64,000 nucleotides of DNA, taken from NCBI GenBank assembly GCA_017640665.1, contig JAEPQE010000003.1, forward strand, positions 434,001 to 498,000, in the 5' to 3' direction. The notes below the pieces were generated by a model. That model was not told the origin of the DNA. It did no database searches and saw only the letters and a program-made list of their open reading frames with translations. Within the stretch, counting starts at the first letter, position 1, and each line of letters begins with the position of its first letter. Positions 9,775 through 24,553 of the stretch are shown piece by piece. Position numbers and translations under genes: made by a program. This DNA comes from Balneolaceae bacterium (GTDB lineage: Bacteria > Bacteroidota > Rhodothermia > Balneolales > Balneolaceae).

Positions 9775-11352
9775 ATGAATTATTACGAGTTAATATATTT
9801 AAAGAGCGAGCTCAAAAACAAATTATTGAATGGCGTGATAGAGCAAGCTATCACACCTTACAAGAATTTACTGGAGCTTTATATAGCTGGAGAGAGAGAA
9901 AGTTTCAGGCTAATTTTTAGTTCTTCTCCAGGGAACATGGCTTTGTTTCTCGATACTTATCGTCCCGGGAAAAAGGCTAATAGGTTGCTGTTTTTTGAGA
10001 GTATATATAATGTTAAGGTCACAGATATCCAGTTAGCTGATAAAGACCGGATCATTTCTCTGGTATTTGAAAATGGTGATAAACTGCTCTTTAAATTATT
10101 CAGTAATAAAGCTAATGCTTTGCTGATTAGTAATGGTTTGATTTCGGAAACCTTTAAGGATTTTGATGAGATCGGGAATCCAGAGCCAACACCCAAAACA
10201 CAACAACTTTTCTCCAATATTCCTGAACAAGGGAAATCAAAAGCAGTAATGTTGGCGGCGAACCCTTTGTTGCCGAGAGCTGAACTGGAAGAACTGATCA
10301 GGTTAAACCGGCTGGATGGAAAAACTCCGGAGGAAATAGTTCAACTCACTAAAAAAGTAACTGGACAAATCGCAGCAAAGCCAGTCTACAGGAAGTTGGA
10401 TTCCGGGATAGTTACTCTAATTAATGAAGAATTGCTTCCGTTAAATACTCAGGAGGAATACGAATCTGTAAACGATTTGATATCGTATCGATTCAGGAAC
10501 TATGCTCATTATCAGCGTCTTAACCAACAAAAAGGATCGATTTCAAAAGCAATAAAGCGGGACATCAAACGGCTGAATTCATCACTAAGGAATCTTTCCA
10601 AAGCAGATAAAGGAATTGAAAAAGCGGAAACTTATGAGAAGTATGGGCATTTACTGATGGCGAATGCACATCTTGAGAAACCTCAAACAAACACATTAAC
10701 AGTTTCAGATTTGTATGATGGAGGAAAGGAAATTCAGATTAAAGTAGATCCGGAACTTACTGTCGCTGAGAATGCCGAGCATTACTATAATCGTTCATCC
10801 AGTGCTTTGAAATCTTATAAAGAAGCAGAAAAGCGGACTCCTAAATTAGAAGAACGTCATAATCGACTCCTGAGAATGGAGCAGGAACTCAAAGAAATTT
10901 CTCATCTAAGAGACTTGGATGATTGGAAGAAAGAGCATCAAAAAGAAATCGGAAATCTGGGTTTTGGGAAATCAAAAAAGCAAGAAAGTGCACTTCCATT
11001 TCATACATTGGAACTGAACGGTTATCAAATATGGATTGGTAAGAATGCGAAAAGCAACGATAAAATCGTTCAACTTTCACATAAAGAAGATGTTTGGATG
11101 CATGCCCGTGGAGTCCCGGGTTCTCATTTAGTAGTTCGAATGGAAAACAATAAGGAGATGCCTTCAAAAGAAACCATTGCCAGAGCAGCCTCTTTCGCAG
11201 CGTATAATTCCAAGGCGAAGGGGGCTAAGCTGGTTCCTGTGATTTTTACTAAAAGAAAGTACGTTCGAAAACCAAAAGGAGCAGCTCCTGGTACTGTTCT
11301 GGTTCAGAAAGAAGAAGTAGAACTGGTTAAACCCGAAAAGCCTGAAGTATGA
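9775..11352 (+). CDS. rqcH: NFACT protein RqcH (Rqc2 homologue)
   Basis: RqcH binds 50S subunits blocked by peptidyl-tRNA and recruits tRNA-Ala to add alanine tails that mark stalled products for degradation. The 525-residue protein shows the NFACT-N part (YELIYLKSELKNKLLNG at the start), a long helical coiled-coil middle (about 250-390), and the NFACT-R domain near the C-terminus with DVWMHARGVPGSHLVVR and KYVRKPKGAAPGTVLV. It heads a plus-strand gene run and overlaps aroK by 4 bases (ATGA), so the genes are probably co-transcribed. Confidence 0.9.
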   Translation: MNYYELIYLKSELKNKLLNGVIEQAITPYKNLLELYIAGERESFRLIFSSSPGNMALFLDTYRPGKKANRLLFFESIYNVKVTDIQLADKDRIISLVFENGDKLLFKLFSNKANALLISNGLISETFKDFDEIGNPEPTPKTQQLFSNIPEQGKSKAVMLAANPLLPRAELEELIRLNRLDGKTPEEIVQLTKKVTGQIAAKPVYRKLDSGIVTLINEELLPLNTQEEYESVNDLISYRFRNYAHYQRLNQQKGSISKAIKRDIKRLNSSLRNLSKADKGIEKAETYEKYGHLLMANAHLEKPQTNTLTVSDLYDGGKEIQIKVDPELTVAENAEHYYNRSSSALKSYKEAEKRTPKLEERHNRLLRMEQELKEISHLRDLDDWKKEHQKEIGNLGFGKSKKQESALPFHTLELNGYQIWIGKNAKSNDKIVQLSHKEDVWMHARGVPGSHLVVRMENNKEMPSKETIARAASFAAYNSKAKGAKLVPVIFTKRKYVRKPKGAAPGTVLVQKEEVELVKPEKPEV

Positions 11353-11912
11353 ATGAGTATCGATTAAAAAAATTTGATGGAAGTATTTATTTAACTGGGT
11401 TTATGGCCTCTGGTAAAAGTGCTATTGGACGTGAAATTGCAAAAAAACTGGAAAGACCATTCGTAGATCTTGATGCGATTATTAAAAGGGGAGAAGGGAA
11501 ATCGATTAAAAGAATTTTTGAAGAGGAAGGTGAACCATACTTCCGGGACCGGGAATGGCAGTATTTACTTGAACTCACCAGAGAGTTTAAAGGAGTGGTT
11601 GCACTAGGTGGTGGAGCACTTCATAATCAACGGGTGGTAGATCATTTAAAAGTGCACGGAATACTGGTGTTTATTAAAGCACCAATGGAGGTAATTGTTG
11701 AACGGGTAATGAGAAATACAAAACGACCTATTGTACTTAATGCCGAAGGTAAAATAAAATCGCGGGAAACTCTGTTTACAGAGCTTAAAGCCTTATATTC
11801 ATCCCGAATAGAATATTATAAACAAGCTCAGGTTACATTAGAAAGCCATGGCAATGAGCTGAAAGAAGGACAGGCTCTGAAATTGATCGAAAAGTTAACA
11901 AGGTATGTTTGA
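11349..11912 (+). CDS. aroK: Shikimate kinase
   Basis: The enzyme phosphorylates shikimate with ATP (aromatic amino acid pathway). Visible are the P-loop GFMASGKS (residues 17-24), the DLD pair in VDLDAIIKRGEGKSIKRIF, the shikimate-binding FRDREW, and VVALGGGAL. At 187 residues it is normal in length. It overlaps the upstream rqcH stop by 4 bases and the downstream aroB start by 8 bases, showing a tightly packed operon that pairs two consecutive pathway genes. Confidence 0.95.
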   Translation: MNEYRLKKFDGSIYLTGFMASGKSAIGREIAKKLERPFVDLDAIIKRGEGKSIKRIFEEEGEPYFRDREWQYLLELTREFKGVVALGGGALHNQRVVDHLKVHGILVFIKAPMEVIVERVMRNTKRPIVLNAEGKIKSRETLFTELKALYSSRIEYYKQAQVTLESHGNELKEGQALKLIEKLTRYV

Positions 11913-12999
11913 TTCTATACCCGTAAGTACAACATCTACAGATTCATACACAATTACCGTTGGTGAAAACCTGATGGAAGAAGTTGCTGAAACGTTAGCA
12001 TCTCGGTTTAGCCGATCTAAGTTGTTTATGATTATTGATGAGAAAGTCTATCGGAACCATAGCTCATATATAGAATCTGAGCTGGAAATGAAGTTTTCAA
12101 GAATTACTAAATATGTGGTTCCAAGTGGAGAGAGTAATAAAAGCATGGAACAGTTCTCCAGAATTGTAGACTTTATACTTGAAAACGGAGTAGAACGTTC
12201 AACTTCTTTACTAGCTGTAGGGGGAGGAGTAGTAGGTGATCTCGCTGGGTTTGTTGCTGCTTCGGTATTAAGAGGAATTCCACTTATTCATTTACCAACT
12301 ACGCTATTGGCTATGGTTGATAGCTCAATCGGAGGAAAAACAGGAGTTAATCATGAAGTCGGAAAAAACTTAATCGGTGCCTTTTATCAGCCAAAAGCTG
12401 TATTTGCTGATGTTACTTTTCTAGAAACACTTCCAAGGCAGGAATGGGTGAACGGAATGAGCGAAATACTTAAGTACGCAATGATTGAATCACCCGATCT
12501 TTTCACGCAGTTAAAGGAATTAACTCAGCATAACGAATTTGCATCACCGAAAGAATGGATACCGATTATTAAACAAAGTGCGGACATTAAAGTAGATATT
12601 GTAAACAAAGATGTTAAAGAATCCGGTATAAGAGAGTTTCTAAACTTTGGACATACCTTTGCTCATGTAATCGAAAGAAAGGGAGAATACGGGCACTGCT
12701 CTCATGGAGAGGCCGTTTTTGCAGGGATGTTTGGCGCAGTTGAAGCATCGAACCGAACCGGGGCTTCAATTAGTACAAACGATTTAGAGTACTTCAAGCC
12801 GTTGTATAATTTGAATCTTGAGAAAATTGGAACTGATACTAAGGAATTAACTCAACTTATGTTGAGAGACAAAAAAGTGAAAGATCAAACGATTCGCCTG
12901 ATTTTACTGGAAGAGATGGGTAAGCCTGTTGTTAAATCGTTTGAAGAAACAAAATTGGTAGAAGCAAGCTGGAACTATCTTATTTCGGAATTCACCTAA
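11905..12999 (+). CDS. aroB: 3-dehydroquinate synthase
   Basis: AroB converts DAHP to 3-dehydroquinate using NAD+ and a divalent metal. The 364-residue sequence has VGGGVVGDLAGFVAA (NAD site), HLPTTLLAMVDSSIGGKTGVN (active-site loop), and NFGHTFAHVIE and HGEAV, which supply the metal-binding histidines. The ATG lies within the aroK end, an 8-base overlap. Its length is normal and no key residue appears to be missing. Confidence 0.96.
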   Translation: MFDSIPVSTTSTDSYTITVGENLMEEVAETLASRFSRSKLFMIIDEKVYRNHSSYIESELEMKFSRITKYVVPSGESNKSMEQFSRIVDFILENGVERSTSLLAVGGGVVGDLAGFVAASVLRGIPLIHLPTTLLAMVDSSIGGKTGVNHEVGKNLIGAFYQPKAVFADVTFLETLPRQEWVNGMSEILKYAMIESPDLFTQLKELTQHNEFASPKEWIPIIKQSADIKVDIVNKDVKESGIREFLNFGHTFAHVIERKGEYGHCSHGEAVFAGMFGAVEASNRTGASISTNDLEYFKPLYNLNLEKIGTDTKELTQLMLRDKKVKDQTIRLILLEEMGKPVVKSFEETKLVEASWNYLISEFT

Positions 13000-13003
13000 A
13001 TTT

Positions 13004-16000
13004 ATGGCAATACGCTGGATACATAAAGCCTGGTCCGTTTTTTGGACATATTTTGGCATTACTGTTGCGGTAATTCTTGTACTTGGTGTGATCGGTTTTG
13101 GGGTTTTACAGCTACCGGCTTCGAAGAGCTACATTGTTTCTAAAATTGAAGAACGATTTAACACACAACATCAGGGAGTACTAAAATTTGGGAAGTTTTC
13201 AGGTACGTTTCCGGTAAGCTTTGAGTTTGAGAATGTGGCATTATATCCCGATTCCAGTCTTAAAAATCCTATTTTTGAAACAGATACGATTACTGCTACA
13301 CTCGACTTCTGGGCGTTATTTCGAAATCGCTTTGTGGTAAATAGTCTGAATGTAAAGTCTCCAAAACTGGTACTTGAGAAAGATTCATCCAGGTCTATTC
13401 TCAACGCGATTAGAAAAAGAAACGTGGTTCAGACAAATTCTTCTGCAATAACTTCCGCTCCTGCAAACCCATTTGTGGAAATACTTGCCCCTTCTGTCAT
13501 TCTTTCGAATGGAACGGTTGTGATGAAAGAGGTAATACCCAATCTTCCGAATGATTTGGATAGTGTGACCTTTCAAGACCTCAATATCAACATGTTTTTA
13601 GATTATAATCATGAAGGTCGTTTTGTCGATATTGATCAACTTAGTATGAAGATTCCTGAGTTTGATGTAGAGAATATAAGTTTGTATGGTCAGGTTTTTA
13701 ATGACAATCAATTTCTTGAACTCAATGCTTTTAATATCAATTTTGGAAACTCTATCCTGCGTTTTGGTATGGAAGCAGATGGAGTTGATATTTTTAAAGG
13801 CGAAATTGTTAATCAATTAAATACTTCTCAGCTTTCACTGGATATTAATGAGTTCAAGATCGAGCCATCCTTGATAACAAGAGTTTTTGAAAATTATCCT
13901 TATTCACAGAAAAACCTTTCTTTAAATTTAAACGCTGAAGGAAGTGTGGACTCTTTATGGGTTGAGGAATTCCTACTAGGTTTTGGAGAAAGTAGCTTTG
14001 AAGGATTTGGTTACATCAAGAATCCTTTGTTATCTCAGGCGCTTTTTTTCGATTCTGAAATTCACGATATCTATCTTGATTCTACCGACATTCTTACCAT
14101 TTTCGAAAACATTACTCCGAATCAATTAGGGGCAATAACATCGTCAAGTGTTGACATCAAAACATCAGGTAATTCAGAAAAGGTGAACAGCCTGATTGAA
14201 TTATCAGGAGCAAGGGGAAATGCTTTATTAGAGAGTGAACTCTTTTTAAATGATGAGCTTTCTTTCGGTACTTTTGTTACGGTAGACAGTGTTAATTTGG
14301 GAATGCTTTTTACCGATCAGATTGTGCAGTCAGATATATCCGGTTTCATCAATATCGAAACCTCCAGCCTTAAAGAGATAAAAAATTCGGTTGGTGAAGC
14401 CGAGTTTGATTTCCAGAATGGATCTATAAATGGGGTAAGTTACGACAGCTTATCAATAACCGGGAATTGGGATTCAGGCATAGTTTCGCCTTCTTTTAAA
14501 TTACAATCTCCCGAAACAGAAGTAAGAGGAATGGGAACCATTCAGTTAACCGACTCTATTCCTTCTATCGAGTTTACCGGGAGCGCAAAAAACCTCAATG
14601 TTAAAGCTTTGACTCAGTCTGAAGTTATGTCCGAGGCCTTTGTAGATTTAGATTACGAAGTATTTTTAAGTGGGTCGAATCGAGAGAATATTTACGGTCA
14701 GGTTAGCCTGGATATTCCATTCTCCGTAGTAAATGGCGATACACTACCTTTGCACCAAATTTATGCGGATTTCAATGAACCCGGATTGAACACAAGAATA
14801 TTGAGGATTACTTCTACAGCATTTGATCTCGATGTTAATGGTCAATTTGATCCAAATGATATGATAGAATTGGCTCCGCTTTGGACAAATTATTTTGAGA
14901 ATAGAATAGAAGAAGAGATTCTATTCAAAGGTACTCAAAGAGCTGATTCGCTAGAGCCTCAAGTTACCGACCAAAACTTTAGCATAGGATTGTCGTTGAA
15001 GAATTTGGCTTTATTGAAAGCATACTTTCCTGCAATACCTGCCTTAAATTCTAAGGCTCAAATCAATTCAAATTTCAACGTTAACAGAGAGAGACTGCTT
15101 TTTAACGCATCGGTAACAGATTCTGAGTTCAGCTACAAAAATTCTAAAGCAGATTCTTTAGTAGTACAGATAACAGGGAGTTTTAGAGAGAGACAAAAAA
15201 TCAAAGAATTCAGCAGCTTTAGAGCTCAGGTTCAATCTTCAGGTTTAGAAACTGAATTTATATCAGCGAATAGTTTCAACATGTCTTTTGAAATGGAGGA
15301 AGACTCTGTCTTGTTCACTCAAAACCTTACAGGAATTGCTGATGAAGCAGCTTTGGAGCTTTCCGGCGAAATAGCGCTTAAAGATTCCAGCCTTGACCTT
15401 ACTGTCAGGAATTTTGAATTAGGGAGCGAGGTATATAAATGGCAAAACGAAGGCATTCCATTCGTAAGTTATCAGCCTGAAAACAAACTAAGATTTCAGG
15501 ACTTTACTTTTTCAAATTTTGAAGAGTTTGTAAGCATAGAAGGAACTTTTAGTAACGTTCCAAGCGATTCAGTCAACTATGTAATCAGAAGTGTTGATTT
15601 ATCCCGTATTTCGACCCTGGTTAATGGACGAATTGATTTCTCGGGTGAACTGGATGGAAGGTTTACAACTCGTTCTTTAACAAGAATCCCCACCATTCAG
15701 GGAGAGCTTAATGTATTTGAACTTGGTCTGGATGAAAATATAGTGGGAGATGTAAGTTTAAATAGCGTATTCAATAGAGAATTAAACCGTTTTGATACTA
15801 ATATTTCTATTAATACCGACTCCACTAAGTACCCGGAATACTTTGTGAGAAATGCTCGCCTTGGACAGGATATTGAGCTTAATGGATATGTTTTAGCTCC
15901 CGAGAACGGAGAATTCCCCGATGAAGATTCACTCTTTAATTTCGACCTGGAATTTGAGAATGTTGATTTATGGGTTATCCCATTTATCGCACCAAAAGTA

Positions 16001-17710
16001 TTCGCAGAAATGTCTGGTAAGGCATCAGGAAGTGGGTATGTTTGGGGGAATCTCGATACTTATGATTTCAGTGTCGATTATTCAATAGGAATGGACGATG
16101 CAGTGTACATGAAGCCTAGGTTCCTCGACACCTTTTATTACGGTCAGGGGTTGTTGAATTTTTCCAGAGAAAATGGGCTCGACTTTCAGGACATATTTAT
16201 TATTGATCCCTCAGGTGGTTCTGCAATTTTGAGCGGAACGTATAATTTGAACAACTTCCAACAAATACATCTAATTGATCTTGAACTTCAGATGGATGAA
16301 TTTCAATTTCTGAACAGTACTCTGGATCCTACATTACCATTTTTTGGAGACGCCTATGGAACCAGTACTATCCGCATGACGGGTACAAATCTTAATCCGG
16401 TTCTTTCAACTGCAACTCCGGTTTACATATCCGACTTTTCAAATATTGGGATTCCTCTTTTAGAAGAAACAGAGTTTGATGAAGACAATAAATTTATTCG
16501 GTTTGTAGATGACTTCTCAGTGGCAAAAAAGAGAAGCTCAGGTCCTGCAAGTACAGATGCCGAGTTTACAGTAGTTGAAGAGAATGATCCTTTTGACCGA
16601 ACCTTTATAGAACGTTTTACCCTCGATCTTCAATTCATAGCCAATCAACCGATGACGGTCCGATTGATATTTGATCCTATAACCGGAGATATGATTACCG
16701 CTAATGGTACTGGCAGGCTCAGAATTCAGCTTCAGGATGAAGATCTAAGTATGTTTGGTCAATTTGATATTTCAGGAGGGAACTACAACTTTGTAAGTGG
16801 CGATATTTTTACCAGAAGATTTGAGATTTCACCGGGCGGTTCGATCATTTGGGAAGGTTCTCCGACCGATGCACGCCTGGATCTGGAAGCAGTGTATGAA
16901 GCACGGCCGGATATCAATACCCTAACCAGAGCAAGAGCCGAAATTGATCAGGAAACGTCTCAACGTGTTCCGGTCCAATTGGTATTGAATATTGAAGGAT
17001 CTCTGAACAGCATTGAAAATAATTTCTTTTTCAGGCTTCCAAATACATTCGAATCGCGACAGAATACTACGCTTTCTACCCAAATCAACTCTTTAAATAG
17101 AAATGAAGACGAAAAGCTAATTCAAGCTACCAGTTTTCTTTTAATGGGTGATTTTATTCCATCCACATCAGCAACTACAAGTACTACAAACTCCTTTACA
17201 GATAACTTTTCAGGAAGTGGTGCAGTATTAAATCCTTTGCTCTCAAGCCAGGTTATCAGTCCTTTGCTATCAAACCAGATTAATTCTTTATTAAGAAGTG
17301 ATATTGGAAGTTTAGATATTGATTTCAACCTCAACACCTATAACAATGTGGACCTGGCTGTAGCTCTTCGACTGTACAACGACCGTATCATACTTAGCAG
17401 AGAAGGGCAAATCACTGGCGCACAGTCGAATATTGGAGATATTGGAGCAACGTACAGAATCAATCAAACACTATCAGTTACCGCTTTCCATCGCCAGGAT
17501 CCTACTTTCAGCAATTTTGGCGGGGTTGATGATGGCCGGCAAGGTCAGGATATTAACGGAGTGGGGCTTGAAGCAGAGGTAAGTTTTAACAGTTGGAATG
17601 AATTTTTCAGAAAATTAGCTAATCCTTTTAGAAGGCTTTTTGGGACAAAAGATAAGGAAGAGGAAGAAACAGAAGAACAAACAGAAAATCAGAATCCCCC
17701 ATCGAAATAA
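13004..17710 (+). CDS. tamB: TamB-like translocation and assembly module protein (DUF490)
   Basis: This 1568-residue protein has an N-terminal membrane anchor (about residues 10-35) and a very long periplasmic part of repeated short beta strands, ending in a TamB_C/DUF490 domain recognised by IWEGSPTDARLDLEAVYEAR and the closing RINQTLSVTAFHRQDP region. TamB-type proteins span the periplasm and are thought to move phospholipids to the outer membrane or help insert outer-membrane proteins. The tail is highly acidic (EEEETEEQTENQ). The gene starts 4 bases after aroB. Two genes later lies an outer-membrane barrel protein that could be a functional partner. Confidence 0.88.
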   Translation: MAIRWIHKAWSVFWTYFGITVAVILVLGVIGFGVLQLPASKSYIVSKIEERFNTQHQGVLKFGKFSGTFPVSFEFENVALYPDSSLKNPIFETDTITATLDFWALFRNRFVVNSLNVKSPKLVLEKDSSRSILNAIRKRNVVQTNSSAITSAPANPFVEILAPSVILSNGTVVMKEVIPNLPNDLDSVTFQDLNINMFLDYNHEGRFVDIDQLSMKIPEFDVENISLYGQVFNDNQFLELNAFNINFGNSILRFGMEADGVDIFKGEIVNQLNTSQLSLDINEFKIEPSLITRVFENYPYSQKNLSLNLNAEGSVDSLWVEEFLLGFGESSFEGFGYIKNPLLSQALFFDSEIHDIYLDSTDILTIFENITPNQLGAITSSSVDIKTSGNSEKVNSLIELSGARGNALLESELFLNDELSFGTFVTVDSVNLGMLFTDQIVQSDISGFINIETSSLKEIKNSVGEAEFDFQNGSINGVSYDSLSITGNWDSGIVSPSFKLQSPETEVRGMGTIQLTDSIPSIEFTGSAKNLNVKALTQSEVMSEAFVDLDYEVFLSGSNRENIYGQVSLDIPFSVVNGDTLPLHQIYADFNEPGLNTRILRITSTAFDLDVNGQFDPNDMIELAPLWTNYFENRIEEEILFKGTQRADSLEPQVTDQNFSIGLSLKNLALLKAYFPAIPALNSKAQINSNFNVNRERLLFNASVTDSEFSYKNSKADSLVVQITGSFRERQKIKEFSSFRAQVQSSGLETEFISANSFNMSFEMEEDSVLFTQNLTGIADEAALELSGEIALKDSSLDLTVRNFELGSEVYKWQNEGIPFVSYQPENKLRFQDFTFSNFEEFVSIEGTFSNVPSDSVNYVIRSVDLSRISTLVNGRIDFSGELDGRFTTRSLTRIPTIQGELNVFELGLDENIVGDVSLNSVFNRELNRFDTNISINTDSTKYPEYFVRNARLGQDIELNGYVLAPENGEFPDEDSLFNFDLEFENVDLWVIPFIAPKVFAEMSGKASGSGYVWGNLDTYDFSVDYSIGMDDAVYMKPRFLDTFYYGQGLLNFSRENGLDFQDIFIIDPSGGSAILSGTYNLNNFQQIHLIDLELQMDEFQFLNSTLDPTLPFFGDAYGTSTIRMTGTNLNPVLSTATPVYISDFSNIGIPLLEETEFDEDNKFIRFVDDFSVAKKRSSGPASTDAEFTVVEENDPFDRTFIERFTLDLQFIANQPMTVRLIFDPITGDMITANGTGRLRIQLQDEDLSMFGQFDISGGNYNFVSGDIFTRRFEISPGGSIIWEGSPTDARLDLEAVYEARPDINTLTRARAEIDQETSQRVPVQLVLNIEGSLNSIENNFFFRLPNTFESRQNTTLSTQINSLNRNEDEKLIQATSFLLMGDFIPSTSATTSTTNSFTDNFSGSGAVLNPLLSSQVISPLLSNQINSLLRSDIGSLDIDFNLNTYNNVDLAVALRLYNDRIILSREGQITGAQSNIGDIGATYRINQTLSVTAFHRQDPTFSNFGGVDDGRQGQDINGVGLEAEVSFNSWNEFFRKLANPFRRLFGTKDKEEEETEEQTENQNPPSK

Positions 17711-17717
17711 GGAATGA

Positions 17718-19880
17718 ATGAGTAGAAATCAGAGGCTAAGCACCCTAGAAGAAATTGTACTGGATTTAGTTAAAAACAGCCCTGAATCAAATCTGTCAAA
17801 AGAGACGATTAAAAGTGTATTACAGTTAAGCAGCAAAAAAGAAGTAAAGCGACTAGATAAGGCTATAAATAGTCTTTCAAGCAAGCAGCTTGTTACCCGT
17901 CAGGGGAAGAGTATCCTACTAAAAAAGAAAGAGTCATCAAAATCCAGCGATAATGGTTCCGATGGATTGATTGAAGGTAAGATCCAGATTACACAAACAG
18001 GAATGGGTTTCGTGTTGGTAGATGGGATGGACGAAGATATCAAGATTCATCGCCGTGATGTTGGAACTGCGCTTCAGGGGGATTTAGTAAAGGTCAAATT
18101 AACTCGCGGTAATAAACGATCTGGCCAGCCTAAAGGTAGAGTGATAGAGATAGCTAAGCGCGGTAAGGATTTTTATGTTGGTACGCTTAAAAGAACAGGA
18201 ACCAAAACCTACATTATTGAGCCAGATACAAAATCGGCCCACACCGACTTTTACGTACTTCCAGAAAACCTGAATCGAGCTCAAAAAGAGGATAAAGTAA
18301 TTTTTACGCTCGAAAAGTGGGTGCATCAGCAAGCGTTACCGGAAGCTAAAATTACCTCCATACTTGGGAAATCGGGAAGTAATGATGCAAACATTCTGTC
18401 GATTCTTGCTGAAAATGAATTAGTAGCAGAGTTTCCTCCTGAAGTAGAACGCTTTGCCAAAACTATTCCTGATCAGATACCTGAAGAGGAAATTGCACGT
18501 AGGAAAGACCTTAGAAGTGAAAACGTATTCACAATCGATCCCGCGGATGCCAAAGATTTTGATGATGCACTTAGTATATCCTTCAACGAAAAAGGGAATT
18601 ACTATCTGGGTGTACATATCGCAGATGTTACTAACTATGTAAAGCCGGAAACTCCGCTTGATACCGAAGCCTTCGAACGTGGTACCAGTATTTATTTAGT
18701 GGATCGGGTGATTCCCATGCTGCCTGAACGTTTAAGTAACGGAGTTTGTAGCCTTCGACCTAACGAAGATAAGCTTACGTACAGCTGCTTTATGGAAATC
18801 GATAAGGATGGGAATCTGGTTGATTATTCAGTTGAGGAAACAGTAATCCACTCTAAGCAACGATTTACCTACGAGCAGGCTCAGGAAGTCCTTGATGGGA
18901 AAAATCACGAGTATAAAAAAGAAGTTCACCTTGCAGGTAAACTGGCCAAAACGTTGATGGAGAAACGGTTCAGAGAAGGGGCTATTGATTTTGAAAGTCC
19001 TGAACCACGTTTTGTATTAGATGAACATGGAAAGCCGATAAAAGTGGTTCTCAAAAAAAGAATCTTTGCTCATCGACTTATCGAGGAATGTATGTTAATG
19101 GCAAATAAGACAGTAGCTATTCATATTGATAAACTCAGAGAATCATCAGGGAAAAGGAAAAGTAAAAATCTCTATCCCTTCTTTTATCGTGTACACGATA
19201 AGCCGGATGATAAAAAATTAGCGGCAGTTGCCGATCAGGTTAAGCCAATTGGAGTAAATTTTGAACTTGGAAATAAAGTGTCTCCGAAATCAATAAATAA
19301 GCTCCTGAATGATATAAAGGGTACCAGTGTAGAAACTATTGTAAATGAGCTAACGCTCAGAGCGATGGCTAAGGCAGAGTATAGTCCTCAGAATATTGGA
19401 CACTTTGGTCTTGGATTTCAACATTATGCACACTTTACCAGCCCGATCCGTCGTTACCCTGATGTTATTGTCCATCGCTTGCTTAAAGGATATGCGTCCG
19501 GAGCTGTTGCTTACAATTACGACACTCTAAGCAAAAACGGACAGCATTGTAGCGAACGTGAACGTGTAGCTGTTGATGCTGAACGTGATTCCATTAAATT
19601 AAAGCAGGTGGAATTTTTAAGTAACAAGATTGGCGAAACCTTTGATGGGGTGATCAGTGGAGTCACAGAAAGAGGTATTTTTGTTAATCTAAAAGAGATA
19701 CATTGCGAAGGCATGATTAGAGTAAGCGACATGAAAGGTGATTATTACAACTACGACCAACGAAGCCATAGTTTAATTGGCAGGTCTAGTAAAAAATCCT
19801 TTCAATTAGGGGATGATATTCGCATCCGTGTAGATAGTGTAAATCATCAAAAGCGACAAATTGACTTCGTTCCGGCATAA
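17718..19880 (+). CDS. rnr: Ribonuclease R
   Basis: RNase R is a 3'-to-5' exoribonuclease that degrades structured RNA. The 720-residue protein shows an N-terminal winged-helix-like region, cold-shock OB domains (GKIQITQTGMGFVLVDG), the RNB catalytic core with IDPADAKDFDDALSI (the acidic metal site), then HFTSPIRRYPDVIVHRLL, and a C-terminal S1 domain (FDGVISGVTERGIFVNL). It ends right after S1 and lacks the long Lys-rich tail of the Escherichia coli enzyme. It starts 8 bases after the tamB stop. Confidence 0.95.
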   Translation: MSRNQRLSTLEEIVLDLVKNSPESNLSKETIKSVLQLSSKKEVKRLDKAINSLSSKQLVTRQGKSILLKKKESSKSSDNGSDGLIEGKIQITQTGMGFVLVDGMDEDIKIHRRDVGTALQGDLVKVKLTRGNKRSGQPKGRVIEIAKRGKDFYVGTLKRTGTKTYIIEPDTKSAHTDFYVLPENLNRAQKEDKVIFTLEKWVHQQALPEAKITSILGKSGSNDANILSILAENELVAEFPPEVERFAKTIPDQIPEEEIARRKDLRSENVFTIDPADAKDFDDALSISFNEKGNYYLGVHIADVTNYVKPETPLDTEAFERGTSIYLVDRVIPMLPERLSNGVCSLRPNEDKLTYSCFMEIDKDGNLVDYSVEETVIHSKQRFTYEQAQEVLDGKNHEYKKEVHLAGKLAKTLMEKRFREGAIDFESPEPRFVLDEHGKPIKVVLKKRIFAHRLIEECMLMANKTVAIHIDKLRESSGKRKSKNLYPFFYRVHDKPDDKKLAAVADQVKPIGVNFELGNKVSPKSINKLLNDIKGTSVETIVNELTLRAMAKAEYSPQNIGHFGLGFQHYAHFTSPIRRYPDVIVHRLLKGYASGAVAYNYDTLSKNGQHCSERERVAVDAERDSIKLKQVEFLSNKIGETFDGVISGVTERGIFVNLKEIHCEGMIRVSDMKGDYYNYDQRSHSLIGRSSKKSFQLGDDIRIRVDSVNHQKRQIDFVPA

Positions 19881-19898
19881 ACCACAATTAGTATTGTT

Positions 19899-22800
19899 AT
19901 GAGAGCAAAAATAATAGCTGTTTTCTTCTTGTCATTATGTGTTGGGCTTCCAACCCTTAACGCCCAATATTTTTCATTTGGTAAGAACCGCGTTCAGTAT
20001 CAGGATTTTGAATGGAGATTCATCCAGTCAAAACATTTTGATATCTATTACTACGGTGAAAAGAATTATGAATTAGCTGAATTTGCAGCACAAAGCCTTG
20101 AATCGGCTTACAAACAGCTTCAGAATGACTTCAACCATGAAATAGTAGATCGTATTCCACTTATTGTGTACGATTCTCACAATGATTTTTCCCAAACTAA
20201 TGTGGTAGCTCTCCCCACAAGTGCAGAAGGTATTGGCGGAGTGACTGATAAAGCCAAAAACCGAATGACTGTTCCTTTTGCAGGTGATTACAATGATTTT
20301 AGAAGAACACTCCATCACGAGCTGGTTCATGCCGTTTTTAACGATATGTTTTACGGTGGATCAATACAATCAATTCTTAGAAATAACATCCAACTCGTAT
20401 TCCCACTTTGGTTTGAAGAAGGCCTGGCTGAATACACAGCTCTTGGCTGGGACACAAACACAGACATGTTTATCAGAGATGCCGTAATAAATGGATATCT
20501 CCCCCCAATCAGATATTTAAGTGGGTACTACTCATACAGAGGCGGACAGTCTGTATGGAATTTTATAGTAGAAGAATACGGACGCGAAAAAATTGCAGAA
20601 ATCCTAAATCGAATTAAAACCAGTCGCAGCATAGAGTATGGCTTTGCAGATGCACTTGGATTAACCATTGAAGAACTTTCAGAACGCTGGGAGCAACATC
20701 TTAAAGAACGTTATTTCCCTGAAGTGGCCCAGCGCGAAAATGCAAAAAGTATCGCCTCATTGATGACCAAGCGCGGAGATTATGGCAGTTATAACACCAG
20801 CCCCGCAATATCTCCTCAAGGTGATAAGATTGCATTCATCACTAATAAAAGAGGCTATTTTGACATAATTGTAATCGATGCATTGAATGGCAGAAAGTTA
20901 AAAACTTTGGTTCGGGGAGAGGATAATCCTGATTTCGAAGAATTGAATATTCTGAATCCAAATCTAACATGGTCTCCTGATGGGCAGTACATTGCTCTGT
21001 CTACAAAAACAAAAGGAAACGATGATATCGCAATAGTTAATTACCGGACTGGTAAAATAGAGAAGATAAAACTCGAACAACTTGATGCAATCGAATCGGT
21101 GGCTTGGTCGCCGGATGGAAACAAGCTTGCTTTCGATGGAAATATTGGACCATATCAGGACATTTTCGTGTACAATCTACAGACAAAAGAATTGACAAAT
21201 GTGACCAGCGATTTCTTTTCAGATAAGCAACCGGTGTGGTCGAACGACTCGAAATCTATTTATTTTGCCTCAGACAGAGGAGCGAAAATCGAATTAGACA
21301 CTTATAAATTAGACTATCGTTTATTAAGTGATTTCAGCATTTATCAAACCGATATTTTCAAAGTAGAACTGGGTAATTCTGTAGCCGAACGTATCACATC
21401 AACTGATGGGTGGACTGAAAATCAACCAGATGTGACCAGAACAGGCAGGCTGGTTTTCAATTCTGATGAAAATGGAATCCAGAACATTTATGAATACGAT
21501 TTCGAAACTCAAACAGCTGTTCCATTAACCGATCTACAGGCTGGTGTATCTCAGTTTTCAGTAAGTGCTGATGGTAGCAGGATTGCGTTAAGTTCGATTA
21601 ATGAAGGTTACCTGGATATCTTTTTACTGAAAACTCCGTTTTCCAGAAGGAAATCTGAACCTCTTGAAAAAAATTACTGGGCAAAACGTAGAGCAACAGA
21701 GAGTCAAAGTGAGAGAGTACCTGCTACATTGTATGCTCAGGAAATGTACAAAGAAGGTCTTATAACAGGAGCAGAAAGAACGCAGTTAGATAAAGAAGCT
21801 GAAGAAGCTCAAATGACAGAAGAGGAGCGTAACAGCACCTTTGAACAAAGTGGGGAGATTGACTTCAGGAATTATGTATTCTCTGAAGATGTGATTCAGG
21901 ATACAACTCTTACTTTAGTGGATGAATTTATTTTCGAATTGGAAGATAATATTACTGATGATGGCAGATATCTTCCCCGTGAATATCGTTTAACCTTTAG
22001 CACAGATATTGCATACAGTCCTTCGATCTCAGCTTCAACTTATGGTACGTATGCGCTTACTCAGTTCTTGATTAGTGATTTATTAGGAGATCACCAATTA
22101 GCAATGGGTACAAATTTTCAAACCGATTTAAGAAACAGCGATTATTCCATTCAATATGGATATTTGAAAAATCGAACTAACCTCTTTTTCTCATATTTCC
22201 ATTCTTCCCGACAATATCAAACCTTGTATGGCGAACTATTACGTTTCAGAACCTTTGGAGCTGCTTTTAATGCTCAATATCCGATTGATAAATTCAGAAG
22301 AATTGATTTTGGAGCTTCCTGGATTGGGCTTGTAAGAGACTATGATAGCGTTTTTAATCCTTTATCTGTCTTTTTCGGATTACCTGGTCAGGAAGGTGAC
22401 GCTCAAAACTTAAATAGTTCTTTTCTATATCCTCAGCTCTCTTATACAAAAGACGCGACCTTACCAGGATTTATCACACCAAGGGGAGGTACCAGGTATT
22501 CTGTGAGCCTTTCCGGAAGTCCGGCGCTGGGAAATGATTCGCCGCTGTTTGCATCGGTATTGGGAGACTTCCGTCACTACATAAACTTAGGTACTAATTA
22601 TTCTTTAGCATTTAGAGGATCGGGGGGAGCTTCTTTTGGGAAAGACTCCCAGACCTACTTTATGGGAGGTATGCAAGGGTGGATAAACCAACGGTGGTCT
22701 GATAATGGTATTCCTTTAGACAGACTTGCAGACACGTTCTTTACTCTACCAGCAGTCCCATTAAGAGGATATGAGTACAATTCGATTTACGGTAATAAAT

Positions 22801-23249
22801 TTGCTCTTATAAACACCGAGTTCAGATTCCCATTATTTGCAGCAATTGTACCCGGAGCAATACCAATCTTACCTCTTTATAACATCACTGGAGCCTTCTT
22901 TGTAGATGTAGGAACAGCATGGGGGTTTGATATCAACCAAACATTCCAAAACCGACTAGGGCAGCCTGTTGTTATTAACGAAAACCCAAAAGAGTTGGAT
23001 TTCAGGCTGGGAGAAGAAGTTGTAACCTATTACGATTTAACAACAAGCTCCAGAGTAGACGAGCCAGTTCCGGGAAATGAAACCATACAGTTTAACTCCA
23101 TTGATGGTGATATTCTTGCAGGGGCAGGATTTGGACTCAGAACAATCGTATTTGGTCTTCCGCTTCGTTACGACATGGCTTGGTCTTATGGTAGAGGAGG
23201 GTTTAATCCCGGAGCAGTTCACTACTTTTCAATTGGAATTGATTTTTAG
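19899..23249 (+). CDS. Peptidase-MA / TolB-like propeller / outer-membrane beta-barrel protein
   Basis: The 1116-residue protein joins three parts. After a signal peptide (ends near Ala22) comes a gluzincin-like peptidase domain with HELVH (His140, Glu141, His144) and WFEEGLAEY, where Glu174 is a likely third zinc ligand. Residues about 285-600 are PD40/TolB-like propeller repeats (WSPDGQYIA, WSPDGNKLAF, FSVSADGSRIA). The C-terminal third (about 690-1116) is BamA/TamA-like surface-antigen barrel, ending in an aromatic residue (DF). It would sit in the outer membrane with the peptidase and propeller in the periplasm. The substrate is unknown. It follows RNase R by 18 bases and shares 4 bases (TTAG) with the convergent plug gene. 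Confidence 0.85.
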   Translation: MRAKIIAVFFLSLCVGLPTLNAQYFSFGKNRVQYQDFEWRFIQSKHFDIYYYGEKNYELAEFAAQSLESAYKQLQNDFNHEIVDRIPLIVYDSHNDFSQTNVVALPTSAEGIGGVTDKAKNRMTVPFAGDYNDFRRTLHHELVHAVFNDMFYGGSIQSILRNNIQLVFPLWFEEGLAEYTALGWDTNTDMFIRDAVINGYLPPIRYLSGYYSYRGGQSVWNFIVEEYGREKIAEILNRIKTSRSIEYGFADALGLTIEELSERWEQHLKERYFPEVAQRENAKSIASLMTKRGDYGSYNTSPAISPQGDKIAFITNKRGYFDIIVIDALNGRKLKTLVRGEDNPDFEELNILNPNLTWSPDGQYIALSTKTKGNDDIAIVNYRTGKIEKIKLEQLDAIESVAWSPDGNKLAFDGNIGPYQDIFVYNLQTKELTNVTSDFFSDKQPVWSNDSKSIYFASDRGAKIELDTYKLDYRLLSDFSIYQTDIFKVELGNSVAERITSTDGWTENQPDVTRTGRLVFNSDENGIQNIYEYDFETQTAVPLTDLQAGVSQFSVSADGSRIALSSINEGYLDIFLLKTPFSRRKSEPLEKNYWAKRRATESQSERVPATLYAQEMYKEGLITGAERTQLDKEAEEAQMTEEERNSTFEQSGEIDFRNYVFSEDVIQDTTLTLVDEFIFELEDNITDDGRYLPREYRLTFSTDIAYSPSISASTYGTYALTQFLISDLLGDHQLAMGTNFQTDLRNSDYSIQYGYLKNRTNLFFSYFHSSRQYQTLYGELLRFRTFGAAFNAQYPIDKFRRIDFGASWIGLVRDYDSVFNPLSVFFGLPGQEGDAQNLNSSFLYPQLSYTKDATLPGFITPRGGTRYSVSLSGSPALGNDSPLFASVLGDFRHYINLGTNYSLAFRGSGGASFGKDSQTYFMGGMQGWINQRWSDNGIPLDRLADTFFTLPAVPLRGYEYNSIYGNKFALINTEFRFPLFAAIVPGAIPILPLYNITGAFFVDVGTAWGFDINQTFQNRLGQPVVINENPKELDFRLGEEVVTYYDLTTSSRVDEPVPGNETIQFNSIDGDILAGAGFGLRTIVFGLPLRYDMAWSYGRGGFNPGAVHYFSIGIDF

Positions 23250-24553
23250 TATCGGGCATTCACCTGCTTGGTATTTAATAATCTGTCATATTGATTTTGG
23301 GGGTCCCGGTAATACACAAATCCAATGTATTCCTGATCTCTTTTTGTCAATGAATCACTCAATCGAAGATCGTTAATTTCACCGTTCTCCAGAGTCACAT
23401 ATTTGTAAGAATAAATACCCTCTTTAATCAGCGATGATGTCTGATATACACCCATTTCAGGATTAAACTGTAATTCATTTCTTTCAGAAATAGTCCATTG
23501 ATTGAAGTCACCGATTAGAAAAACAGACTCTTTTTGGTTGAGCTGATTCCCTGTATTTAATCGAAAGATCACTTCATTATAGCTTGCTACAGGTACTTTT
23601 TTTGGAAAACCCAATTCGCTAATAGAATTAGGTCTGGGATCAGCCAGAAAATTAAGAAAATCATCTTTTAATGTTACTCTTTGAGGAGTTCTTGCTGGTT
23701 CGAAATTAAAAATCTGCGGGTTTTGAAGAGTTAACTGACTTAAATCCAAGACACTGAAATCAAAATTAGCAGGGAATGAATTGTTTCTGGAAAGGTGAAA
23801 TTCAGTCTCACCATCATCCGTAAAACTGATTTGTGCTGCGTTTTTTGCTTGTCTCCAAAATCTGTTTTGGACAAAAGAATAGGACAAATCGAACCGAGGA
23901 AACTCTATAAACTCGGGATAAAAATACTTACCGAAGAGTTGATCCAGCGCACTTCCATCTTTACCTTGATTAAAAAGTGTTTCTGAACGAACTATTAAGT
24001 TTCCTTCGGCTTCTGTAACAAAAAAAGGAAGGCTGAAAAGCTCTGTTCCTGATTGGTAATCGAATACATGAAGCAGATAATGCCCACTTACAGTGAAATT
24101 TAAATTCCGATTTGGAAACTCCGTTTTATAGTGAAAATAATCAGGTTTAGTCTGTTGGTTAGGTGTCCCACCCCGGACAAATAGTTCATTTATTCCATCA
24201 AATACCCAAGGGTCAGGTAATCCACTTTCCTGCCAGTTTTTATTGTGATGGGAGAAGCTAATCCGGTACTGACCCGATACTGATGCAAGCTCATCAAATT
24301 CTAAAATCAATTTCTGAGTGGATCCTAGCTCTATAATAGGAAGGTTCCCCTCAAAACTTTCCCGATACAACTGAACACTTTTGATAGATCGGGGAGTACT
24401 CAACTGACCCGGAACAAGCAGCAAACTGGACTCTGTTTTTGTATTGGAAGATTGTTTAATGATTAAACTTTCCCCGGAAGTACAGGAAATGAAAAGAGCT
24501 AAAAAGGTAAGAGCGGAATACTTTTTAAAGATCGATGGTGCCTGTAAATACAA
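23246..24553 (-). CDS. Type IX secretion plug-type protein (DUF5103)
   Basis: The 435-residue protein starts with a signal ending in FISC, so it is probably a lipoprotein. It matches the DUF5103 family now linked to the plug of the type IX secretion translocon: an N-terminal beta domain with SVQLYRESFEGNLPIIELGS and QYRISFSHHNKNWQESGL, a middle domain, and a C-terminal Ig/E-set domain resembling CBM48 (VFLIGDFNQWTISERNELQF, GIYSYKYV). In relatives the plug closes the periplasmic side of SprA. No other T9SS gene is in the window. The only in-frame start ahead of the signal is a TTG at 24553, inside the end of dapF (29-base overlap). Confidence 0.8.
   Translation of the reverse strand: MYLQAPSIFKKYSALTFLALFISCTSGESLIIKQSSNTKTESSLLLVPGQLSTPRSIKSVQLYRESFEGNLPIIELGSTQKLILEFDELASVSGQYRISFSHHNKNWQESGLPDPWVFDGINELFVRGGTPNQQTKPDYFHYKTEFPNRNLNFTVSGHYLLHVFDYQSGTELFSLPFFVTEAEGNLIVRSETLFNQGKDGSALDQLFGKYFYPEFIEFPRFDLSYSFVQNRFWRQAKNAAQISFTDDGETEFHLSRNNSFPANFDFSVLDLSQLTLQNPQIFNFEPARTPQRVTLKDDFLNFLADPRPNSISELGFPKKVPVASYNEVIFRLNTGNQLNQKESVFLIGDFNQWTISERNELQFNPEMGVYQTSSLIKEGIYSYKYVTLENGEINDLRLSDSLTKRDQEYIGFVYYRDPQNQYDRLLNTKQVNARY

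Follow-up and report, generated by a model that had tools for sequence, protein, structure and literature searches.

The window, by which we mean the whole 64,000-nucleotide stretch of DNA analysed here, contains a tight run of genes at 9775-23249 for an NFACT/RqcH-like protein, AroK, AroB, a TamB-family protein, RNase R and, last, the protein studied here, a 1116-residue product of an ORF on the + strand (19899-23249, ATG start). The first three genes are presumed to be what they resemble by eye, and the fifth we take to be RNase R from its recognised family. The run mixes ribosome-rescue-like and RNA-decay genes with envelope genes. It is closely packed, with 7 bases between tamB and the RNase R gene and 18 between the latter and the studied gene, whose end is overlapped by 4 bases by a convergent gene for a T9SS plug protein (23246-24553; NF052315, E 1.6e-54). 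We considered that gene as a partner and rejected it because it is convergent and is missing beside the studied gene in many loci. Table 1 lists the features discussed below.

Table 1. Features of the studied gene and its two upstream neighbours, in positions of the window
Feature	Positions	Strand	Basis or remark
TamB-family protein, 1568 aa	13004..17710	+	profile match to the second TamB family of the same genome
RNase R (presumed)	17718..19880	+	sequence; between tamB and the studied gene; order conserved
Signal-peptide-like N-terminus, residues 1-22	19899..19964	+	hydrophobic start, then AQYFSFGKN; no lipobox Cys
Predicted gluzincin (zinc peptidase) domain, residues 24-290	19968..20768	+	Peptidase_MA_2 and M9 collagenase fold match
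HELVH: His140, Glu141, His144, predicted zinc ligands and catalytic Glu	20316..20330	+	invariant in 56/56 orthologues
Glu174 in WFEEG, predicted third zinc ligand	20418..20420	+	invariant in 56/56; varies in the clade without the site
Tyr213, candidate transition-state residue (putative role)	20535..20537	+	Tyr in 44/44 of the active clade, 0/31 of the dead clade
Predicted TolB-like propeller, six-bladed, residues 290-585	20766..21653	+	PD40 and TolB 1c5k fold match
Helical linker, residues 586-689, partly disordered	21654..21965	+	model: helices 593-646; pLDDT <50 at 645-676
Predicted Omp85-type outer-membrane barrel, residues 690-1116, last residue Phe	21966..23246	+	PF01103 and Deinococcus BamA fold match
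LRGY, Omp85 L6-type (V/L)RG(F/Y) motif, residues 954-957	22758..22769	+	conserved in active and dead clades

Layout and distribution of the protein

AlphaFold, supplied with an alignment of 56 orthologues drawn from Balneolota, Rhodothermota and Ignavibacteria, predicts three domains for the full-length protein (mean pLDDT 83, pTM 0.80), with pLDDT below 50 for residues 1-28. The N-terminal domain matches Pfam's Peptidase_MA_2 family (PF13485; residues 72-269, E 1.1e-13, above the cut-off) and, folded alone (pLDDT 86), superimposes on M9 collagenase peptidase domains (Z 16.9, 225 residues, 3.6 A) and on M1 aminopeptidases (Z 12-14). It has the hallmarks of the gluzincins (peptidase clan MA), an HExxH motif and a downstream Glu within the fold. 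A search with its profile against the sequences of solved structures found no relative, so the assignment rests on Pfam and the fold. The middle domain contains four PD40 stretches (Pfam, E 2.9e-17) and aligns with TolB (1c5k; Z 28.0, 243 residues, 2.2 A); the NCBIfam TolB equivalog TIGR02800 also matches (E 3.7e-35), at 121.7 bits, well short of its cut-off of 343.15. For the C-terminal domain, the Omp85 family PF01103 scores 35.1 bits against a cut-off of 24, a match obtained only in the whole-genome search and absent from a single-protein hmmscan, and the model aligns with Deinococcus BamA (Z 24.8, 316 residues, 4.0 A). By its secondary structure the modelled barrel has about 15-17 strands, where 16 would be expected of an Omp85 protein. 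The L6 motif is nearly invariant: across both clades described below, R956 is kept in 75/75 proteins and G957 in 74/75. Pfam finds no POTRA domain in the protein, and residues 24-585 are taken up by the peptidase and the propeller. Based on these models, this is an Omp85-family protein in which a predicted gluzincin peptidase and TolB-like propeller stand in place of the usual periplasmic POTRA domains. A first-pass annotation, made from the letters alone, had placed a gluzincin, a propeller and a BamA/TamA-like barrel in one protein and proposed structure prediction as the check; the Pfam matches and the likeness of the models to solved structures bear that reading out, and the C-terminal part is predicted to fold as a barrel.

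The protein is widespread. It has a match in 39/39 relatives searched, and profile searches, in which some best matches extend over the peptidase and propeller alone and could be paralogues, find it in 101/148 sampled genomes of the phylum (E 1e-30) and in 102/119 genomes of the class sampled around one genome, G083 (E 1e-25); that class is probably Bacteroidia. One paralogue (L152:722-8414; G000:C2:1005721-1013413) has HEFVH, PD40 repeats and a weak Omp85_2 match, and its gene sits directly after those for a PorV-family protein and a protein with a T9SS sorting tail. In three further homologues (L123, L126 and L140) the zinc site and propeller are intact, and the C-terminal part is different and has no LRGY.

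The zinc site and the clade that lacks it

Six residues, His140, Glu141, His144, Asn148, Glu174 and Tyr213, show no variation across the 56 aligned orthologues. Glu174 follows His144 by 30 residues. The third zinc ligand of M1 enzymes is supplied by the Glu of their NEG motif, which fits the predicted role of Glu174. The grouping of Glu174 with HELVH in one zinc site, as the first-pass annotation had it, is thus supported at the level of predicted ligands. The conservation check that it proposed for these four residues had a mixed outcome: they are invariant in the window's clade (56/56) and lost in 31 orthologues of G083's class. Outside that class, conservation this strict suggests real catalysis.

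In G083's class, none of the 31 full-length orthologues examined has HExxH at the site (the dead set of 31 comprises 30 full-length orthologues from the class plus L127). The motif is replaced by, for example, AGxxE or AGxxK; position 174 is variable and no protein retains Tyr213. In some of these proteins the sequence still betrays the peptidase fold (L183 and L184, Peptidase_MA_2 at E ~1e-5, below the cut-off), and L204 has no Pfam match to that family. A tree of the propeller and barrel only, with the peptidase columns excluded, separates active from dead proteins by a single change with 100% SH-aLRT, in a quick search with midpoint rooting and long-branch warnings. The change was presumably a loss rather than a gain, since the paralogues retain the site.

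The two sets also differ in where they have diverged. Between an active set of 29 diverse rows and the dead set of 31 rows, the mean pairwise identity of the barrel is the same (43.5% and 43.4%, respectively), whereas that of the peptidase domain is 55.8% versus 42.6% and that of the region around the site 66.6% versus 46.6%. With the barrel equally diverged, the higher identity of the peptidase domain and site region in the active set indicates that the peptidase is constrained where zinc is kept. Conversely, the loss of the site in 31/31 proteins while the L6 arginine persists in every protein compared implies that the role of the barrel outlives catalysis. Taken together, these sequence comparisons argue that the protein has a role independent of its zinc site and that the site is functional in the lineages retaining it. 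The suggestion in the first-pass annotation that the protein could cut or check other proteins is accordingly not the whole story, given that G083's class has kept the protein with no active site.

These patterns also bear on the idea that we are looking at a dedicated processing protease, for which the barrel is only an anchor while the enzyme, in the periplasm, processes a single envelope or secreted protein or a handful of them. The invariance of the zinc site and of Tyr213 is what such an enzyme would show, and the HEFVH paralogue of the same layout, beside PorV and a T9SS-tailed protein, suggests a possible tie to secretion; a mere anchor, however, would not need the barrel and its L6 arginine to be conserved after the site was lost, and no co-conserved substrate gene was found. 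We consider this explanation possible but doubtful.

Gene neighbourhood and proposed role

The order tamB - RNase R - studied gene is found throughout Balneolales and in at least six Ignavibacteria-like families. In one genome, G151, there is no RNase R gene in the neighbourhood; tamB lies nearby on the other strand, and a single short ORF separates it from the studied gene. Among the sampled genomes the link to tamB is absent from the other Rhodothermia and from the dead clade. The genes upstream of tamB vary, being aroK and aroB in the window and what appear by eye to be heptose-synthesis-like genes in Ignavibacteria. Because RNase R, aroK-aroB and the heptose-synthesis-like genes share the run, the neighbourhood may reflect co-expression and not one pathway. 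Both this linkage and the clade without the zinc site lie beyond what the first-pass annotation saw.

The profile of the 1568-residue neighbour matches that of the second TamB family of the same genome (P 100, E 1.9e-67, 1291 columns); PF04357 matches only the latter. We dropped the idea that the neighbour is an extra TamB beside a canonical one, as its profile has a match in 61/61 genomes, and it is more likely to be the broadly conserved TamB. From its wide occurrence and charged tail, we infer that it corresponds to the TamB of F. johnsoniae, where TamL and TamB are separately encoded, essential and copurify (PMC12045153). In the second pair in the window's genome (L151:1161-7576), tamB comes after a POTRA-Omp85 gene in an operon-type arrangement. 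G006, a relative with a small genome, matches the TamB of that pair only in a short C-terminal fragment and not over its full length.

Could the studied protein be the outer-membrane partner of TamB, replacing TamA/TamL, perhaps in lipid transfer, with the peptidase secondary? The conserved tamB neighbourhood, the short distance between the two genes in G151, where they are arranged differently, and the finding that most of the Ignavibacteria-like genomes listed have their best TamB match (by either profile) at the locus of the studied gene would all fit. We nevertheless think it unlikely: the linkage is missing in other classes, and the window's genome has two further POTRA-bearing Omp85 candidates, one of them directly before another TamB. 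That the barrel instead exports the N-terminal domains to make a surface-exposed peptidase, as was once proposed for PlpD, is improbable: the Omp85/TpsB proteins do include translocases (PMC4104836), but the enzyme domain of PlpD stays in the periplasm (PMC11116518) and the N-terminal domains studied here precede the barrel, like POTRA domains.

The best explanation, which we put forward tentatively and at slightly less than even confidence, is that the protein is a periplasm-facing outer-membrane biogenesis factor near TAM/BAM that carries out proteolytic quality control in the lineages that keep the zinc. Its barrel would be embedded in the outer membrane, and the peptidase and propeller would both project into the periplasm; by analogy with Omp85 proteins in general and with PlpD (PMC11116518), the periplasm is the likely location of the barrel-tethered peptidase. 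The propeller may dock partner or client proteins, and the whole would assist outer-membrane biogenesis as an accessory factor, in the vicinity of TAM (TamB) and BAM. Where the zinc site is kept (Balneolota, Rhodothermota and Ignavibacteria), it would trim or clear away clients that are stalled or misfolded, in principle like BepA at BAM in E. coli, and in G083's class the same protein would be a non-catalytic scaffold. This biogenesis-factor reading is consistent with the domain evidence, the 56/56 zinc site, the keeping and losing of Tyr213 together with that site, the occurrence in 39/39 relatives and 101/148 genomes, and the tamB gene order, including G151; by analogy, the essentiality of TamB and its outer-membrane partner TamL in F. 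johnsoniae (PMC12045153) also favours it. Against it, other Rhodothermia and the dead clade lack the linkage to tamB; TamB of F. johnsoniae is already partnered by TamL, and a crosslinked TamL pull-down yielded no other significant outer-membrane protein (PMC12045153); and some Omp85 proteins may not be protein assemblers, PlpD being a candidate example. The broader form of the proposal, an unrecognised, widespread, TamB-linked component of Bacteroidota outer-membrane biogenesis with its own quality-control protease, which turned into a pseudoprotease a single time, at the root of one class, we regard as rather unlikely.

Little is known of what POTRA-less Omp85 proteins do, and this one is present in the majority of the genomes sampled from a large phylum. 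Its active and dead sites, separated by one change on the tree, are a clean natural experiment, its gene neighbourhood names candidate partners, and it makes it possible to test directly if a built-in protease is compatible with a working Omp85 barrel.

Comparison with known systems

BamA, TamA and TamL have one or more POTRA domains, unlike the studied protein. TolB shares its propeller fold and has neither peptidase nor barrel. The M9 collagenase and M1 aminopeptidase domains share the gluzincin fold, with HExxH and a downstream Glu, but are only ~11-18% identical to it in structural alignments and come with no such barrel or propeller. BepA, a periplasmic zinc peptidase at outer-membrane assembly, resembles it in proposed role only; it belongs to family M48, carries TPR repeats and lacks a barrel.

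Other Omp85 proteins also carry an enzyme domain. Pfam family PF00149 comprises calcineurin-like phosphoesterases. It is the domain of Metallo-Omp85, which like the studied protein has an enzyme ahead of an Omp85 barrel, in this case one termed a metalloprotease in PMC4104836 and not a gluzincin. In PlpD (patatin-Omp85) an enzyme is likewise fused to an Omp85 barrel and is periplasmic (PMC11116518), but that domain is lipolytic and the protein is a homodimer with one POTRA.

The nearest match is WD40-Omp85, a subfamily defined by Heinz and Lithgow in 2014 from its propeller and barrel and likened, in the main text of that paper, to a BamA-BamB fusion (PMC4104836). As described there, its members share with our protein an N-terminal TolB-like propeller, an Omp85 barrel and the lack of POTRA domains; the main text mentions no peptidase domain, whereas the studied protein has a predicted gluzincin. 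The paper further attributes the spread of the non-POTRA subfamilies to transfer and puts their conservation at the genus level (PMC4104836), which differs from a presence in 101/148 sampled genomes of a phylum. We found no report of a peptidase-propeller-Omp85 protein, or of a peptidase domain in WD40-Omp85, in the main texts of open-access papers, and the metalloprotease, WD40-like and patatin Omp85 subfamilies are described as not well characterised so far (PMC11116518). The first-pass annotation was therefore right that no clear function had been described, but the architecture had been in part, as WD40-Omp85 (PMC4104836). Judged by its predicted domains, the studied protein is a variant of that subfamily.
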